Source of the DNA: Paenibacillus glycanilyticus
Lineage (GTDB): Bacteria; Bacillota; Bacilli; Paenibacillales; Paenibacillaceae
Assembly: GCF_030161375.1 (NCBI RefSeq)
Contig: NZ_BSSQ01000007.1
Location: forward strand, 1 to 64,000
DNA: 64,000 bases
Reading direction: 5' to 3'
Each line of letters opens with the position of its first letter. Within the stretch, counting starts at the first letter, position 1. The notes below the pieces were generated by a model, which searched no databases, had not been told where the DNA came from, and worked only from the letters and a program-made list of their open reading frames with translations. Of the stretch, positions 28,989-38,330 are shown in pieces. The position numbers and the translations under genes were made by a program.

Positions 28989-29867
28989 ATGAGACAAAGC
29001 TTGGCTGAAAGGTCGTTTAACGGTTTCATTTACTTGTTCCTCATCTTGCTGTGCGTCGTAACGGTGTATCCCTTCTTGTATGTGCTCTTGTATTCCTTTA
29101 GCGATGCAACAGCGGCATCCGCAACGCAAATTACGCTATATCCGGTAAAAGCTACTTTGGAGAATTACACGGCCGTATTCGCGAATAAAAATATTTTCCA
29201 TTCGTTTTTTGTATCCGCTTCCAGAACGGTTATAGGAGCTATATCCCACGTGTTAGTAACGAGTTTGGCTGCTTATTCGCTGTCGAAAGCTCATCTCATT
29301 GCCAGAAAAAAGCTGCTTGTTTATTTTCTTATTCCGATGTACTTCAGCGGCGGTCTGCTTCCTTTCTATGTGTTAATTATCAATCTGCATCTCAATAACA
29401 ACTTCTTGGTGTACATTTTGCCGGCCCTGTTTGGCACCTATAATATGCTGCTCTTCAAAACGTATTTCGAGCATCTGCCGCAAACGATTGAAGAAGCCGC
29501 GAAGATCGACGGCGCGGGAGACTTCACGATTTTCACCCGAATTGTTATTCCGTCAAGCATGCCTATTATCGCAACCGTCCTGCTATTCTCCGGGGTTGGA
29601 CAATGGAATGCATACTTCGATGCCATTCTGTTCGTGACGAAGGAGAATCTGATGCCGCTTCAGACGCTTCTGTACCGGATCGTTGTGGAGCAGCAAGCGG
29701 ACACGATGGAGAAGATTATGAAGCTAGCCAACAAGAAGTCCAACGTGACGCCGGAATCGATTAAGATGGCCACGATTGTTGTTTCGATTGTACCCATCCT
29801 GATTGTTTATCCGTTTCTTCAACGGTTCTATATTAAAGGCGCGATGCTGGGAGCAGTTAAAAGCTGA
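28989..29867 (+). CDS. Carbohydrate ABC transporter permease (LplC/YtcP type), first importer
   Basis: Second permease of the same importer, 292 residues, six helices. N-terminal TVYPFLYVLLYSFSDATAAS, the central LIPMYFSGGLLPFYVLIINL and the EAA loop QTIEEAAKIDGAGDFTIFTR match the LplC/YtcP family. The C-terminal YPFLQRFYIKGAMLGAVKS is the family ending. It begins 18 bp after the first permease with GAAAGGA upstream. Confidence 0.95.
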   Translation: MRQSLAERSFNGFIYLFLILLCVVTVYPFLYVLLYSFSDATAASATQITLYPVKATLENYTAVFANKNIFHSFFVSASRTVIGAISHVLVTSLAAYSLSKAHLIARKKLLVYFLIPMYFSGGLLPFYVLIINLHLNNNFLVYILPALFGTYNMLLFKTYFEHLPQTIEEAAKIDGAGDFTIFTRIVIPSSMPIIATVLLFSGVGQWNAYFDAILFVTKENLMPLQTLLYRIVVEQQADTMEKIMKLANKKSNVTPESIKMATIVVSIVPILIVYPFLQRFYIKGAMLGAVKS

Positions 29868-29957: not shown

Positions 29958-31751
29958 ATGGTCAAAACAAAAAGAATCAGCTCCATGATTACCGTCTCGC
30001 TCTTATTAACCAGTCTGATGGCCGCATGCGGCAACAACAATAATGCTAATGAGAGCTCAAATGCGAATGCCAGCGCAAGTGCAGACGCAAACACGGACAG
30101 CGCAAGCAACGCAACGCCCGAAGCCTCCAAAGAGCCGGAAAAACCGCTTGAGTATTCCTTCCTTGATTTATATCGCAGCGCAAAGCCCGTTGGCATCGAC
30201 AACCCGAATGATGTCGTGACTCCATGGGTAGAGAAGAAGTTCAATATTAAGCTGAAAGAATACACGACCGGCGGCGACCGGACGGCAACGGATGTGCTGA
30301 ATATGATGGTTGCCGCGGGCAATCTTCCCGATGTCGTTATCGTTCCTCATCCGTTCAAGGCCCAATTCTACGAGACCGGACAATTCGCCGATCTATCGGA
30401 ATATAAGGATCTGCTCGTCAACATGAACCAATATACGTCGGATCTGGGATGGAATAACTTGAGTCTCGACGGCAAGCTTGTTGGTCTGCCAAATACGGCA
30501 GAGCCGGATATGACTAAGCCCGATCTGGCCTCCCAAGTGAATTCCGATATTTTCTATCAGCCGCTCAACAACTGGGTACCGGTTGTCCGCGAAGATATTC
30601 TGAAGCAGCTTGGCTATACGTTCAAACCGCTTAGCCAGTTGCAAGGAGAACTGGACGCGAATCCGAGACAGATCGCGCTGGATGATGCAACGCTTGAACC
30701 GGCGATCAATACGTTCGAAGACTTTGAGAAACTTCTCTATCAAATTAAAGATCTGCATCTGAAGGTGGACGGCAAAGAGTTAATTCCGCTCGAGATGCCG
30801 GACTGGGGAGCTTACCACTTCAGCGTCTTGTTCTCGCCGACTGGCGGCTGGTATTACGACAAGGCTGCCGATAAAGTAACGGGTTATCTGGACAATCCGG
30901 GCATGAAGGAATATTATCAAACGCTGGCCAAATGGATGAAGGACGGTATTCTGGACAAAAACTGGCTGATTAACAAGCCGGAACAAGCGCAAGAGAAGAT
31001 TGCATCCGGACGGGTGGCGGTGACCATGTGGGCACCGGATATGACGGCGGCAAGAAATGCCCTGAAGGCAAAAAATCCGGAAGCCGAGATGCATCCTATT
31101 AATTGGCCAGCGCCGAAATACGCCGAGAAGTCGTACGTCGATGCCGCATCACCGGCAGGTTGGCCGATCTTTATGATCAACAAGAACGTGAAGGACATTC
31201 CAAGACTGCTCAAATACTTCGACTGGTTCTACTCGGAAGAAGGCAAGGACATTACAGCTTGGGGACCGGAAGAAGCCGGACTGTGGGAAATGAAAGACGG
31301 CAAGAAAGTGTTCAAGGATGAGAAGTTATGGGAAGCCATTCGCGACACCAAGAAGACGGAAGACGGGAAAAACCAAGAGTACTACGGCATTCTGGGTACA
31401 TCCGAATCTTCCATTACGGCACCGGCGCCAGGCTACAATAACAAAACGCCGTATTACAGCTATCCGATCAAGCTGGATGCTTATGACAGGCTGCACATCT
31501 ACCTGTCCAATCCGAAGATCAGCTACGACGGTTCCGTCTTGCCTGCGATGACCGGCGCGTCCAGCGAGACCAACGGCTATTACTGGAGTACGGCTCGCCA
31601 GAAGGTGGCTCAAATCCTGTCTGCCAAGAGCGATGCGGCTTTTGACAAACAGTGGGATGAAGTCGTTAATGACTTCAAGCAGAAGAGCAATTATGATGCG
31701 GCCGTACAAGAGATGAAAAAAGCTTTCGACAACGTATTGTCGGGCAAATAG
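29958..31751 (+). CDS. Extracellular solute-binding lipoprotein, first importer
   Basis: Substrate-binding protein of the first importer. Lipoprotein signal with lipobox LMAAC and lipidated Cys24, followed by an Asn/Ser/Ala-rich flexible linker (about residues 25-60) and a large two-lobe binding domain. 597 residues, the size of LplA/YtcQ-type proteins that take oligosaccharides. The ribosome site GGGAGG lies upstream of ATG. High-level expression relative to the permeases is usual, but no extra promoter was recognised in the 90-bp gap. Confidence 0.94.
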   Translation: MVKTKRISSMITVSLLLTSLMAACGNNNNANESSNANASASADANTDSASNATPEASKEPEKPLEYSFLDLYRSAKPVGIDNPNDVVTPWVEKKFNIKLKEYTTGGDRTATDVLNMMVAAGNLPDVVIVPHPFKAQFYETGQFADLSEYKDLLVNMNQYTSDLGWNNLSLDGKLVGLPNTAEPDMTKPDLASQVNSDIFYQPLNNWVPVVREDILKQLGYTFKPLSQLQGELDANPRQIALDDATLEPAINTFEDFEKLLYQIKDLHLKVDGKELIPLEMPDWGAYHFSVLFSPTGGWYYDKAADKVTGYLDNPGMKEYYQTLAKWMKDGILDKNWLINKPEQAQEKIASGRVAVTMWAPDMTAARNALKAKNPEAEMHPINWPAPKYAEKSYVDAASPAGWPIFMINKNVKDIPRLLKYFDWFYSEEGKDITAWGPEEAGLWEMKDGKKVFKDEKLWEAIRDTKKTEDGKNQEYYGILGTSESSITAPAPGYNNKTPYYSYPIKLDAYDRLHIYLSNPKISYDGSVLPAMTGASSETNGYYWSTARQKVAQILSAKSDAAFDKQWDEVVNDFKQKSNYDAAVQEMKKAFDNVLSGK

Positions 31752-31775
31752 AGGTTGCAGTTGCGGCTAGAAGAT

Positions 31776-31810
31776 AAGGAGCGTACCGGGTATGGTCGCT
31801 CCTTTCTTAT
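31776..31810 (+). terminator. Probable terminator after the first binding-protein gene
   Basis: Stem AAGGAGCG / CGCTCCTT followed by TTCTTATT. It overlaps the region where an upstream ATG (31792) of the next gene would lie, which favours the later start of that gene. Confidence 0.6.
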
Positions 31811-31836
31811 TCCACGAATGGGAAGGGGCTATATTC

Positions 31837-34392
31837 ATGGAGCGATTAAACAAGCTCAATAAGAAGCTTGTTCTGTTAATTAGCCTGATCTTCATCATGC
31901 AGGCATTTGCCGTACCGCCAGTCATCCATGCCGCGGATTATACGGTTGGAACGGATGGAACCCGTTCTTATCTGCTAGCTTATGATGCCAGCCAATCCGG
32001 TTATTTGTTAAAGGTATTGAACAACGGGACCGAGCAGTGGGTCTCCAAACACGGTTCGGTAGGCGTTAAGGTTATTACCCAAAGCGATCAGCTGCAGAAC
32101 ACGATCTATAAGCCTTATAGTTCGGTGCAAGCGGTAACGGATGGTTATCAGGGATCGGTTACGATCAGCACGGCTAACGGCAGTTCTATCCAAATAACGG
32201 ACAGCTACAGCATGGTTCAAGGCAATCTGAACGTAGCTAGGGAAATCAAGGTGTTGTCTGCCGCATCAAGCGATAAAGGCTTTATGACGGAATTTCCGAT
32301 TCGGACAGCCGCGGCATCGTCCGCGACCGATTTCAAATGGTTCTCGCCTAGTGCCTGGTACGGCAATGACGATCAAACCTTTGGAACCTATTCCTCCCGG
32401 ATTGCCTGGGACGGGCAGGAAAGCGCAACCGGAGTGGAAGCTTTGTCGGCACCGTTTATAACGAGTTACCGCATGAACTCACAGCTTGGTTTAACGCTTG
32501 CGGACCAAACGCCAGGCGCAAGGGAAACAATTGTTGCGGATGAGAACGTGGAGGCGCTTAAATATTTGGTCGACAGCAGAATGAATCTGCCCGGGCTCGG
32601 AATGCGTCTTGCATCGGAAGGATCCGTTCAATATGTCGAGATGTTCCATACGTATCCTGCCTATACGAAGAGAAGAATGATCCCCGATACAAGCACGGGA
32701 GGACGAATCTGGCGTTTTCTGCCGATGACGAACGGACTTACTAGACTGACGAAGATGCAACTGAACTATAAACCGTATACCGACTTTCAGAATGCCGTAC
32801 GTCAAACCTGGCGAGCTGCCTACGACGAGTTGGCGATCGTGGATATGCGGGTTGACCCGAACGAACATAAGGATACGCTTTATGAGCATATCGATAAATC
32901 TTATGGTGTCGTAGGCGGTGCTCCTCAATATTTAACGAACGCGGATCATTTCATGCCCGACAGCGGCTTTTTGTGGCGAAATGCGGATTTGGCCTGGTTA
33001 ATGCTTGCCGCAGGTTACGAGAAAGGAAAGCAGAATTATATTAATCATGCTATAGCGGTACTTAACGATCAGGTAGCGAATGATCGAATCGACGCAAACC
33101 AGACGGATACGGATATGGAGCGGGCGAAGACGGAAGGGTTCCAAGCCGTACTGAAAGCCTACCAGCTAGAGCTGGCCCATGGCGTAACGCATGCCGATTG
33201 GTACTCCTACCTGATTGGCAAAGCAAATGCGCGCCTAAATTCAACGGATATTCAAAGCCTTGGATTTATGGTCGATATCGCAAAATATACGGGTAACGCC
33301 AGCTATAAAACGGCAGCAATGAACATCGGCAATGCTATATGGAACATCGGCCATGGCGACTATAAGTTTTACGGAGGACTATTCTACTTCTCTGCTTCGG
33401 ATATCGTGGACAGAGAATCCGGTTACCTTGCCCTATACGGTTATCTCGGCCTATACGATTTGACGGGAAGCTCGACTTGGCTCGATCGCGCCAAGATTGC
33501 CGCAGACTTCGTAGAGACCAACGAGGTCATTCAGAACGTGAAGATGACCGCCGAAGACGCGACGGGTACAGAAGACAAGAACGCCGTGTTTGGCAACGAT
33601 AATCTGCCTCCTTACGGAATGAGCTTTATCGCTTCCGACGGGTTGGGAGTAGACATCTTTAACGCTGTCGCCGTCCCGGAATATTACCGATTGTACCAGG
33701 CAACTTCGGATTCGCATTATTTGGATTTTGCCAAGTTCTTGGAACGGAACACTATGCTGTACACCAATCTGGGAGACAAAGTAGGCGTTATGGACGATTC
33801 GCTCCACTCGTCGGGTCTTGGCTTCACCAATGAATATTTCTTCCTTGGGCCAAGCGGCGACAGCGGGGGCAAAGGCAGGGGAAGAGGGCATGACAGCAAC
33901 TTGGCATGGGTTCCTTATGTACTGTTATCAGAAGCCCAGCGGATGAAGGACATGACAGGCAGCTATTTCCTAACTCCAACGCAGAGAACGGATTGGAACG
34001 TAGCCCAATTCAAACCCGTAACGGTATCAAGCACGGATAATGCTATTCATGACGCGGCAAGCGCGGTGGACGGAAATCCGGAAACCAGATGGGCCGCTTC
34101 CAGCAGCAGCAAGCCGCAATGGCTTGTCGTTGATTTGGGGCAGAAGCATAATATCAGCAGTATGAAGACAACCTTCGAGTTTGCGGGGTTATATTACCAA
34201 TACAAAATAGAGTATTCCAGCGATAATACGAACTGGACGACGTTTGCCAACCGGACCTCCAATACAACCCCAATGGCGACGTATTCCGATGCGGGCAACA
34301 TCAAAGCGAGATATGTGAAGCTAACGGTGACCGGAGCCGAATGCACCGCATGGGTTGCGTTCGGATTTTCGCGGTCAGCTTCAGGTGCTTAA
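31837..34392 (+). CDS. Secreted protein of unknown catalytic class, C-terminal discoidin domain clipped
   Basis: 851 residues from an ATG with GGAAGGGG 8 nt upstream; a 45-nt longer in-frame start overlaps a terminator and lacks a signal peptide. Signal peptide about 1-32 (KKLVLLISLIFIMQAFAVPP then AA). Residues 33-330 are beta-rich. Residues 330-690 look like repeated helical hairpins of an alpha/alpha toroid, as in many glycosidases and polysaccharide lyases (NADLAWLMLAAGYEKGKQNY, ESGYLALYGYLGLYDLTGSS). Residues 700-851 are an F5/8 type C domain, but the last strand breaks off at TAWVAFGF and runs into an unrelated SRSASGA. The enzymatic family is not recognised. The gene runs 38 bp into the out-of-frame GH39 remnant. 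Confidence 0.8.
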   Translation: MERLNKLNKKLVLLISLIFIMQAFAVPPVIHAADYTVGTDGTRSYLLAYDASQSGYLLKVLNNGTEQWVSKHGSVGVKVITQSDQLQNTIYKPYSSVQAVTDGYQGSVTISTANGSSIQITDSYSMVQGNLNVAREIKVLSAASSDKGFMTEFPIRTAAASSATDFKWFSPSAWYGNDDQTFGTYSSRIAWDGQESATGVEALSAPFITSYRMNSQLGLTLADQTPGARETIVADENVEALKYLVDSRMNLPGLGMRLASEGSVQYVEMFHTYPAYTKRRMIPDTSTGGRIWRFLPMTNGLTRLTKMQLNYKPYTDFQNAVRQTWRAAYDELAIVDMRVDPNEHKDTLYEHIDKSYGVVGGAPQYLTNADHFMPDSGFLWRNADLAWLMLAAGYEKGKQNYINHAIAVLNDQVANDRIDANQTDTDMERAKTEGFQAVLKAYQLELAHGVTHADWYSYLIGKANARLNSTDIQSLGFMVDIAKYTGNASYKTAAMNIGNAIWNIGHGDYKFYGGLFYFSASDIVDRESGYLALYGYLGLYDLTGSSTWLDRAKIAADFVETNEVIQNVKMTAEDATGTEDKNAVFGNDNLPPYGMSFIASDGLGVDIFNAVAVPEYYRLYQATSDSHYLDFAKFLERNTMLYTNLGDKVGVMDDSLHSSGLGFTNEYFFLGPSGDSGGKGRGRGHDSNLAWVPYVLLSEAQRMKDMTGSYFLTPTQRTDWNVAQFKPVTVSSTDNAIHDAASAVDGNPETRWAASSSSKPQWLVVDLGQKHNISSMKTTFEFAGLYYQYKIEYSSDNTNWTTFANRTSNTTPMATYSDAGNIKARYVKLTVTGAECTAWVAFGFSRSASGA

Positions 34393-35842
34393 GCGGGATA
34401 TTGGATTTGAATATGTAAGGTTTCATGGAATACTCGCGGATGAACTTCTAGTCTATAACGAACAGTCGGACGGAAGCGTGTATTATAACTTCAACCATAT
34501 CGACGCGTTACTCGACACCTTGCTTGCCGAAGGCGTGAGGCCCTTCCTTGAGCTTGGCTTTATGCCGTCGCAGCTTGCTTCATCGGCAGGCGAAATTTTT
34601 TATTGGAAGGCCAACGTAACCCCGCCGAAGGATCTGGTCCGCTGGCTCGACCTGATTGAAGCATTTGTTCGGCATTTATTGAACCGTTACGGGATTGCGG
34701 AAGTAGTGAGCTGGTACTTTGAGTTTTGGAACGAGCCCGATATTGAAGGGGTCTTCTGGAAGGGAAGCCGCGAACAGTTTTTTGATTTTTTCCGTGCAAG
34801 CTGTGAGCGCTTGAAAACAATTGATGCCAGATTGAAAATCGGCGGCTTCGGGAACCTGGGCATGGTCGGAGATGGTGATTGGCTTCAAGACTTTGCCGAT
34901 TACGCCCGCAAGCATGATTTGCAACTGGATTTTTATTCGTTCCATGTCTATCATCTATCCGATTTCGAAGTCGCTAGCGAACAGGCAGCCGTTGCGACGG
35001 AGCTGCTTGCCGATGCGGATTATGCCAGTGATCTTCATTCTGAGCTGCTTAATCAGCTTACGGGCATTCGCCTCGGTGATGCAAATACGATTCAGCGGGC
35101 GGTTGAAGAGGAAGTCGCTCGGTCAGGTACGCTACCCATGACGACGGAAGAACGGTGGATTACGGAATGGAATGCGAATACCGACTGCCGTGACCTTGTT
35201 CACGATACCTGCTACATGGCCGCTTTTATTATAAGGACGGCTTTGCAGATTGGTCCGCATGTCGAAGGATTGGGCTTTTGGACGGCGACGGATCTACACG
35301 AGGAGTTTCGTCTGCCTCAGCCGGTCTTTCACGGCGGATTTGGCCTCATGACTTACAATGGAATCAAGAAAGCGGGGTTCCATGCTTTTGCCTTCCTTGC
35401 CAAGCTTGGCGATGAAATCTTGCTGCAAAAGGAAGGGATTATAGTCACGCGAAGAGGCGATGACTATCAGATTCTGCTGTATCATTATTGCCACTATAAC
35501 GATCTGTATGACCGGTTTGATTATTCCCAGCTTACGTCGATTTCGCGTTATGGCGTATTTCTAAACAGCGAGCTAGAAGAGGTAAAGGTGCGTTTGCATA
35601 GTCTGAATGGCGACTTTACGATAGAAGAACAATGGGTAAACCGTAAACAAGGCTCGTCGTTTGATGCTTGGGTCGAGATGGGGGCACCGGACATCTTGAA
35701 CGGGGCTGGTCACAATCACTTGGTACGGATGGCTGAGCCGGGTTACCGGACCCGAATGGAGCGGGCTGAAGGGATAATGGAGTTAAAAGCTGTTCTTGAG
35801 CCGCATGAGATTCGGCTAGTTACGATAAAGCGCCGATATTAA
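34355..35842 (+). pseudogene. GH39 beta-xylosidase lacking its N-terminus
   Basis: Remaining 495 codons match GH39 beta-xylosidases: IGFEYVRFHGILADELLVYN, acid/base Glu127 in FEFWNEPD, nucleophile Glu271 in WITEWNAN, and VFHGGFGLMTYNGIKKAGFHAF. Geobacillus XynB-type enzymes carry about 25-30 further residues at the N-terminus (beta-1 region), which are absent. In this frame the homologous reading can be followed back only to GLRSDFRG at 34352, where it meets the preceding gene in another frame. There is no ribosome site before TTG 34355. Both catalytic Glu remain, so a coupled or residual product cannot be ruled out. Without its own start it is best treated as a 5'-truncated gene. Confidence 0.7.
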
Positions 35843-35862
35843 TATCGCGCAGCAGAACCAAT

Positions 35863-35900
35863 AAAGGGACATTCGCAAGCAGCGGGTGTTCCTTTTTTTT
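35863..35900 (+). terminator. Terminator after the GH39 remnant
   Basis: 13-bp stem (several G-T pairs) AAGGGACATTCGC / GCGGGTGTTCCTT followed by six more T. Confidence 0.8.
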
Positions 35901-35926
35901 AGGTCCATGAGGAAGTCAAATAGGAA

Positions 35927-35940
35927 TGTAAGCGATAACG
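35927..35940 (+). promoter_or_regulatory. Candidate cre (CcpA) site upstream of the GH3 gene
   Basis: TGTAAGCGATAACG agrees with TGWAANCGNTNWCA at 13 of 14 positions. It lies 120 bp before the GH3 start in a 217-bp gap, suggesting catabolite repression of the operon. Confidence 0.5.
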
Positions 35941-36059
35941 AAATAGAAAACGGAACAGCGGAACGAGTGCTTTGGAATGAATATAACGCCCAGCTGAACT
36001 ATCATTACTATTAATAATTGGAATTAATATCTCATTCATTCAAAGCAGGGGGAATCCAA

Positions 36060-38330
36060 ATGAACCGTGATATAAAGGGACTCGCAAGCCAGATGACGTT
36101 GGAAGAAAAAGCAGGGATGTGCTCCGGCCTAAGCGTGTGGCATTTAAAAGGCGTTGAACGACTTGGCATTCCTTCCATTATGGTGGCGAATGGACCAAAT
36201 GGCCTTCATAAACAAGCCGCATCGGAAGGCATTAACATGAACGGCGCTACTCCCTCCACCTGTTTTCCAACAGCAGCAGCGCTAGCGAGCACGTGGAACC
36301 GCGAACTCATCCATGAAGTTGGCGTTGCGCTCGGAGAAATATGCCAGGCGGAGAATGTAGCCGTGCTGCTTGGACCGGGAACAAATATTAAACGGTCTCC
36401 TCTGGGCGGTCGAAACTTTGAATATTTCTCCGAAGATCCTTATTTATCCTCGGAGCTGGCAGCAAGTCAAATCCAAGGCGTGCAAAGTCAAGGCGTAGGT
36501 ACGTCATTGAAACATTTTGCCGTGAACAATCAAGAGCATCTTCGGATGAGTTATGACGCCATCGTCGACGAACGGACGTTGCGCGAAATTTATTTGGCCA
36601 GCTTCGAAGGTGCCGTGAAGAAAGGAAAGCCTTGGACGGTTATGACGGCATACAACAAAATCAACGGTACTTATGCCTCGCAAAATGAACATTTACTGGA
36701 TGATGTATTGCGGAAGGAATGGGGCTTTGAGGGGGTAGTTGTATCCGATTGGGGCGCTGTTGATCAGATTATCGAATCCTTGGCTGCCGGACTTGAGCTT
36801 GAGATGCCAGGCAATAATGGCCTTACCGACAAGAAAATCATTCAAGGCGTGCGGAATGAAACGTTGCCGTTAGAGGTGCTGGATTCGGCTGTTGAACGGA
36901 TTCTTGAGCTCATCTTCAAGCATATGGACAACAAACGGGAGCATGTAACCGTACGTACAGAGGATAACCACGCTCTTGCGCGTAGAGCGGCAGGTGAAAG
37001 CATCATCCTGTTGAAAAATTCGGATGGGTTGCTTCCTTTACCGAAGAACGGCAAAATTGCGATCCTTGGCGCATTGGCTCAAAATCCTAAATTCCAAGGC
37101 GGCGGAAGCGCCTTTGTTGTACCAACGCAAGTAGATATTCCAGTCGAGGAGATGAAGCAGCTTGCCCATCATGGGGATCTTATCGCCTATGCACCCGGTT
37201 ACGCGGTAGATACAGAGGAAGTGGACGGTCAACTCATCGAGGAAGCCAAACAGGTTGCGGGAGCAGCCGACATTGCGGTGATTGTCGCCGGCATTCCGGA
37301 TGGGTTCGAGTCCGAGCTGTCGGACCGTCGACATCTGCGTCTCCCTTATAACCAGGAGCAATTGATTGAAGCGGTTGCCGCTGTTCATGACAAGGTTGTC
37401 GTAGTTCTCATGAACGGCTCTGCCCTTGAGATGCCATGGGCATCTTCGGTTCCGGCCATTGTTGAAGCATATCTCGGCGGGCAAGCCATTGGAGGGGCGC
37501 TTGCGGACATCCTCTACGGCGAAGTAAATCCAAGCGGCAAGCTGGCGGAGACGTTCCCGGTGAAGCTGGAAGACAACCCTTCCTACTTACACTTCCCGGG
37601 CGAAGGCAAACGAGTGGAATACAAGGAAGGGATCTTTGTCGGTTATCGTTACTATGATACGAAGAAACTGGAGCCTCTCTTCCCATTCGGACATGGGCTT
37701 AGCTATACAACGTTTGCCTACTCGGATCTTAAGCTGAACACCGCGAGTATGCTCGATACCGACACGCTTGAAGTTCAGGTGACGATTACGAATACCGGAG
37801 AACTCTCGGGCAAAGAGATTGTACAGCTGTATGTGAAGGATACGGTAAGCACAATGAAGCGGCCTGATAAAGAGTTGAAAGACTTTGCCAAGGTTGATCT
37901 GGAGCCGGGCGAGCAAACGACGGTTACGTTCACGCTCGGTCAACGCGCCTTTGCGTATTACAACGCGGAATTGAAGGATTGGCATGTAGAAAGCGGAGAG
38001 TTCGCCATCATGATTGGCTCTTCCTCCCGGAATATCGCCTTGCAGGCTTCGCTTGAAGTCCATTCTACCGTAGCGCTTCACCAGACATTCACGCGTAACT
38101 CGTTGCTCGGCGAGTTGATGACGAACCCTGCCGCTGCCTCGATGCTGCAGTCGCTGGCCCAGCAGTTCCAAGCCGCCATGGGGATTTCGGAGCAAGATGA
38201 AAAAATGGCGAAAATCATGCAAGCCGCGCTTGCTACCATGCCTTTGCGCAACCTGGTATCCTTCAGCCAAGGTGCCTTCACGGATGAGATGTTGGAGCAA
38301 TTGCTCGGTCAATTAAATGGGCATCATTAA
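36060..38330 (+). CDS. GH3 family beta-glycosidase with altered substrate-binding residues
   Basis: Retaining beta-glucosidase/xylosidase-type enzyme, 756 residues, no signal peptide, so cytosolic. GH3 TIM barrel with RSPLGGRNFEYFSEDPYL, KHFAVNNQE, VMTAYNKING and the nucleophile Asp in VVVSDWGAVD. The alpha/beta sandwich shows FESELSDRRHLRLP. A fibronectin-like domain follows (EVQVTITNTGELSGKEIVQLYV). The last 85 residues (MTNPAAASMLQSLAQQFQ ... DEMLEQLLGQ) are an extra helical tail. The family's early -DGP-G-R- motif, whose Asp and Arg contact the -1 sugar, reads MVANGPNGLHKQ here (Asn44, His50). ATG 36060 follows CAGGGGGAA by 7 nt; an in-frame TTG at 36018 has no ribosome site. Confidence 0.92.
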   Translation: MNRDIKGLASQMTLEEKAGMCSGLSVWHLKGVERLGIPSIMVANGPNGLHKQAASEGINMNGATPSTCFPTAAALASTWNRELIHEVGVALGEICQAENVAVLLGPGTNIKRSPLGGRNFEYFSEDPYLSSELAASQIQGVQSQGVGTSLKHFAVNNQEHLRMSYDAIVDERTLREIYLASFEGAVKKGKPWTVMTAYNKINGTYASQNEHLLDDVLRKEWGFEGVVVSDWGAVDQIIESLAAGLELEMPGNNGLTDKKIIQGVRNETLPLEVLDSAVERILELIFKHMDNKREHVTVRTEDNHALARRAAGESIILLKNSDGLLPLPKNGKIAILGALAQNPKFQGGGSAFVVPTQVDIPVEEMKQLAHHGDLIAYAPGYAVDTEEVDGQLIEEAKQVAGAADIAVIVAGIPDGFESELSDRRHLRLPYNQEQLIEAVAAVHDKVVVVLMNGSALEMPWASSVPAIVEAYLGGQAIGGALADILYGEVNPSGKLAETFPVKLEDNPSYLHFPGEGKRVEYKEGIFVGYRYYDTKKLEPLFPFGHGLSYTTFAYSDLKLNTASMLDTDTLEVQVTITNTGELSGKEIVQLYVKDTVSTMKRPDKELKDFAKVDLEPGEQTTVTFTLGQRAFAYYNAELKDWHVESGEFAIMIGSSSRNIALQASLEVHSTVALHQTFTRNSLLGELMTNPAAASMLQSLAQQFQAAMGISEQDEKMAKIMQAALATMPLRNLVSFSQGAFTDEMLEQLLGQLNGHH

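Follow-up and report, generated by a model that had tools for sequence, protein, structure and literature searches.

The window analysed here is the stretch of 64,000 bases (1-64000) at the start of contig 7 in an assembly of 6.65 Mb in 36 contigs. Neighbouring annotations (Pfam and the list of open reading frames) make the region of interest one of sugar-use genes. It contains a permease-like gene (28989-29867) and a gene that probably encodes a solute-binding lipoprotein (29958-31751). These two names were given by eye, the second without a Pfam match. Next comes a forward-strand gene for a secreted F5/8C protein (31792-34392), with a core of weak GH127-like similarity and then a truncated F5/8C domain. 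GH39 sequence follows in another frame (34341-35842, forward strand). Past it lie an intrinsic terminator on the same strand (35863-35900; a 14-pair stem then a T run, with a folding z-score of -4.71 for 35845-35905) and an intact GH3 glycosidase gene with Pfam GH3 domains (36060-38330, forward strand). Beyond the GH3 gene are an epimerase gene and then one for a GH43 protein with SLH domains.

The reading frame of the F5/8C protein (31792-34392, stop TAA at 34390-34392) overlaps the GH39 frame, which is open from 34331 to 35842 and out of frame with it. Upstream of 34331 the GH39 frame contains stops, and there is no AraC part there. The ungapped DNA identity to L002 (P. macquariensis) and L003 (P. 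pectinilyticus) is 20/100 and 17/100 over 34241-34340, and it jumps to 68/100 for both over 34341-34440. Because of this jump we place the joint at about 34341, and the exact crossover may lie within about 34339-34362. Homology on the left holds up to E850 and homology on the right begins at 34341, which puts the deletion junction we propose at 34339-34343. The junction is confirmed as real in the assembled sequence. The first-pass annotation had two clipped genes joined out of frame at 34300-34420; the overlap and the incompleteness of both domains bear this out, and the breakpoint can now be given more closely. The tetranucleotide distance across the junction is 0.177, and it ranges from 0.128 to 0.249 at 23 other points of the window. 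This absence of a compositional step speaks against foreign DNA on one side. After E850 an apparent F5/8C-like AWxxF can still be read, and the same bases encode APHGLRS in the GH39 frame, where they are regulator DNA. The likeness is either chance or a trace of bases common to both sides at the crossover.

Residues 743-850 of the upstream protein match positions 2-116 of the 127 in the Pfam F5_F8_type_C profile. This profile end alone is weak evidence of truncation because in a relative, L182, whose F5/8C domain is intact, the match likewise breaks off before the profile ends, at 119 of 127. The missing strand motif is the stronger sign. The final-strand motif [EDN][FLI]x[VIL] is present in 45/45 distinct F5/8C copies from related genomes that align far enough, these being the copies from which it was read off, and it is absent in the window protein. 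In keeping with the first-pass annotation, the upstream protein does not have a complete F5/8C domain with its final strand. Its last 16 codons, past E850, are out-of-frame regulator DNA. A search of 394 family genomes with the upstream gene gave weak matches, in 18/394 at 1e-20 including itself. Among 392 order genomes at 1e-30 only the gene itself and one other genome, G462, were found, the latter at 37%. The G462 protein (1382 aa), the only full-length relative recovered, has three CBM35 stretches before its F5/8C domain and a CE2_N-like stretch after it, so the loss on the left side may exceed one strand. The core of the upstream protein (31792-33990) is in its own right rare, with this one clear relative among the 392 order genomes and otherwise weak GH127-like similarity.

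The downstream gene was first taken for a xylosidase. Sequence comparison and a tree identify it instead as what is left of an AraC-type regulator with a GH39 domain, namely its C-terminal half. The named full-length relatives nearest to the GH39 part come from two Paenibacillus genomes and then from other Bacillota. The L003 homologue has 847 residues and consists, by Pfam, of an AraC_binding/cupin part, HTH_18 and then GH39; L004 also carries these parts. The closest relatives are 62-63% identical over the whole GH39 part, and L057 is 64-65% identical over a portion of it. There are 28 loci whose best segment reaches 46.8% identity or more to the window GH39; all were examined, and 27 have an AraC part before GH39 in the same open frame, and their open AraC-side frame is 313 to 373 codons long. 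The AraC profile behind this count was built from 26 of the 28 loci, so the count is in-sample for those 26 rows; L047, left out of the building, also scores with it. Stand-alone GH39 proteins appear in this survey at 34.7% identity or less only, the broken L057 apart. Among the matches listed from the 394 family genomes, G241 stands at 63%, the next match is at 41%, and there are shorter open frames (501-611 aa) at 32-41%. The tree of 75 rows (42 AraC-GH39 proteins, 32 with GH39 alone and the window), made by a quick method that gave long-branch warnings, places the window as sister to L003 (99) inside a clade of 26 AraC-GH39 rows (SH-aLRT 100).

The window gene shares the C-terminal GH39 domain of this regulator clade by its place in the tree, and it does not have the N-terminal AraC_binding/cupin and HTH_18 parts in frame. 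It is a regulator remnant and not a functional member. Relative to L003, regulator residues 1-348 (1,044 bases) are missing, and with them the entire sensor and DNA-binding half. Gone as well are the spacer between the genes and, from the end of the upstream gene, no less than its final strand and stop. The claim that the GH39 sequence lacks its first 25-30 family residues holds against the Pfam model, where the Glyco_hydro_39 match begins at profile position 31, but not against its true relatives, from which about 348 residues are missing. None of the relatives examined shows an overlap like that of the window, and a conserved arrangement is rejected, since in 27/28 close loci the AraC part shares one open frame with GH39 and the exception, L057, is broken.

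It could be argued that the two domains really form one secreted fusion enzyme, F5/8C-GH39, and that a sequencing error of a single base splits it. They are adjacent and on the same strand, which fits. However, each domain is cut short at the joint, GH39 loci L002-L063 and L065-L093 have no F5/8C match listed at E 1e-5, and the GH39 part belongs to the AraC-regulator clade. We give this idea practically no chance of being right.

The remnant itself is well preserved. The columns that are invariant in 25 relatives number 110, and the window has a different residue in 3 of them (Q to K, K to R and Q to R); intact L003 also has 3 differences and the other rows have 0 to 4. The AlphaFold model of the remnant has a mean pLDDT of 84.6, its first element is the helix 11-23, and it aligns to residues 27-484 of 1w91 (Z 36.5, rmsd 2.5, 445 residues) in a fold search covering the chains ranked by Foldseek. 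As modelled, the remnant is a GH39 barrel without its first strand: it is not complete, beginning at position 31 of the Pfam model and at residue 27 of 1w91. The GH39 beta-xylosidases (Geobacillus XynB1, PDB 1w91/2bs9) share this fold. The remnant carries the glutamates aligned to their catalytic pair, residue 135 (34733-34735, forward strand) with E160 of 1w91 and residue 279 (35165-35167, forward strand) with E278, which we take to be the acid/base and the nucleophile respectively. It differs from these enzymes in lacking the part that matches residues 1-26, and the tree places it with the regulators and not with stand-alone GH39 proteins. Both glutamates are kept in 26/26 rows. That regulators of this AraC-GH39 clade keep the catalytic pair in every row compared is a separate observation, and it suggests that the sensor half of these proteins might still act on sugars.

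We think it likely that a single deletion, in this strain or its recent ancestors, cut and joined two neighbouring genes. This is the best explanation, and an assembly join is less likely; the first-pass annotation had named both. The deletion would have taken the last strand and stop of the F5/8C gene, the spacer in which the promoter of the regulator gene lay, and the regulator's first ~348 codons. This makes at least about 1.07 kb, and more by the length of the spacer. The remaining parts would have been joined in different frames at about 34341, leaving the upstream protein to end in 16 out-of-frame residues. The function of this sugar-linked regulator would be lost because the remnant lacks the DNA-binding part, the first barrel strand and a good ribosome site. 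In ordinary deletion-born bacterial pseudogenes, too, two incomplete genes meet out of frame and no control signals separate them, and the window case shows nothing unusual beside them. It is most likely an ordinary gene-disrupting deletion and not a new kind of genetic element.

Since the remnant shows no decay, either selection kept acting on the gene until a short time ago or the cell itself does not carry the break; in other words, the event is recent or it is an assembly error. An assembler could have dropped more than 1 kb between two genes that are both intact in the chromosome. The undecayed remnant fits this, as does the fact that the assembly is a draft in 36 contigs. Yet there is no N within 31500-37500, and no repeat lies at the junction to explain a misjoin; the 16 other matches that 34260-34420 has in the genome do not rise above chance (E 0.93 or more). 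Nor was a close copy of the missing AraC half found in the genome itself, on contigs above the length filter and among the best 150 of 211 and 150 of 213 candidates scored. The best match there is a divergent paralogue on contig 24 (C24), at 30%, in an 848-residue open frame. The same result rejects, within this assembly, a rearrangement that left the missing half elsewhere. We consider an assembly error unlikely.

Some observations do count against the deletion. L057, although a broken locus itself, has no AraC part either, and L002 and L003, both without an adjoining GH3 gene, do not confirm the right-hand neighbourhood. No locus with the upstream gene adjoining an AraC-GH39 gene was found among the neighbourhood loci examined and, by its open reading frame list, L182. 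A copy from the same species is absent from the comparison set and the nearest relatives are 62-63% identical, so the sequence before the deletion is not seen. We still regard the deletion as the better account, and if it is real this strain could serve as a natural knockout to find out which processes the AraC-GH39 regulator controls.

What the remnant still makes can be judged from the signals around it. No promoter-like or terminator-like site is listed on either strand from 34251 to 34572, in keeping with the first claim that nothing of the kind stands between the two genes; the predicted-site counts over the whole region 31400-36300 are 7 where 6.0 are expected and 9 where 5.1 are. The first in-frame start in the GH39 frame is TTG at 34355 and the first ATG is at 34562. 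The seven in-frame starts from 34331 to 34700 pair weakly with the anti-Shine-Dalgarno sequence, at -6.1 to +0.1 kcal/mol, whereas the neighbours (seven candidate starts of six genes, leaving out a site at 36066, 6 bases inside the GH3 gene) pair at -10.0 to -14.0. The upstream transcript now probably runs through the remnant to the terminator at 35863-35900, and most likely the cell makes little GH39 protein, if any.

Reinitiation at TTG 34355 or GTG 34385, near the upstream stop, or else frameshifting, might nevertheless yield a short active product from the remnant, a GH39 enzyme or an effector domain. Both catalytic glutamate codons and the rest of the domain are intact, and GTG 34385 stands just ahead of the upstream TAA at 34390. 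Against this, the ribosome-site pairing is weak, the remnant has no counterpart of 1w91 residues 1-26, where the first barrel strand lies, and frameshifting would give a secreted chimera in which both domains are broken. We also know of no enzyme activity for this AraC-GH39 regulator clade. Such a product is, in our opinion, very improbable. It would be a still bolder proposal that the deletion turned the GH39 domain into a protein of its own, made by translational coupling and still able to bind or cut a sugar. If true, a regulator domain would have been turned back into an enzyme or a sugar-binding protein, but we hold out extremely little hope for it. The clipped GH39 is better read as a lost regulator than as a damaged xylosidase.

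The remnant corresponds to the C-terminal half of AraC/XylS-type regulators with a C-terminal GH39 domain, and it differs from them in that the cupin and HTH parts are missing. The regulator type is already known, and the model of AryK of Staphylococcus aureus (NCBIfam NF047455) describes a relative. In L003 residues 32-417 match this model (2.7e-63); in the window remnant residues 278-407 do so (model 543-673; 4.7e-11). Both matches fall below the curated cut-off, so neither is an AryK ortholog by the model. No literature on AraC-GH39 regulators was found by title and the start of the abstract, which is not proof of absence. In Paenibacillaceae, what many GH39 matches hit is an AraC-type regulator, of which they are the C-terminal half, and this is an annotation trap.

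The GH3 gene as a conserved partner of the regulator is only partly borne out. A GH3 gene at 60-62% lies directly 3' of the AraC-GH39 gene, in the same orientation, in L155, L156, L158 and L028/L157; the last two look like one genome, which makes four genomes, and their GH39 is only 35-36% identical to that of the window. In L154/L159 (one genome) a GH3 gene at 51-53% lies about 1.5 kb further on, and there is one at 56% in L162, whose GH39, however, is a stand-alone protein. None was found beside AraC-GH39 in five loci: L002, L003, L152, L160 and L161. As far as these loci suggest, the pairing is recurrent, yet it is not common to the closest relatives L002 and L003.

Breakage of these genes is seen elsewhere as well. 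The P. macquariensis AraC-GH39 gene (L002:4942-7485, also L163) is split by a TAA inside its GH39 part into open frames of 671 and 176 residues. The GH39-regulator genes of P. prosopidis (L028:4878-7407) and Bacillus ISL-45 (L047:4907-6620) have frame breaks; among the 27 loci with an AraC part, L002 and L047 are broken elsewhere in the gene. A passage in one report (PMC3922988) describes aryK itself as inactivated in one clone. Loss of AraC-GH39 regulators seems to be recurrent, and the window case would be one more such loss, by deletion. In a Spirochaetaceae MAG (L057:4484-5362) the AraC part is absent, an internal stretch is lost and GH39 itself is broken.
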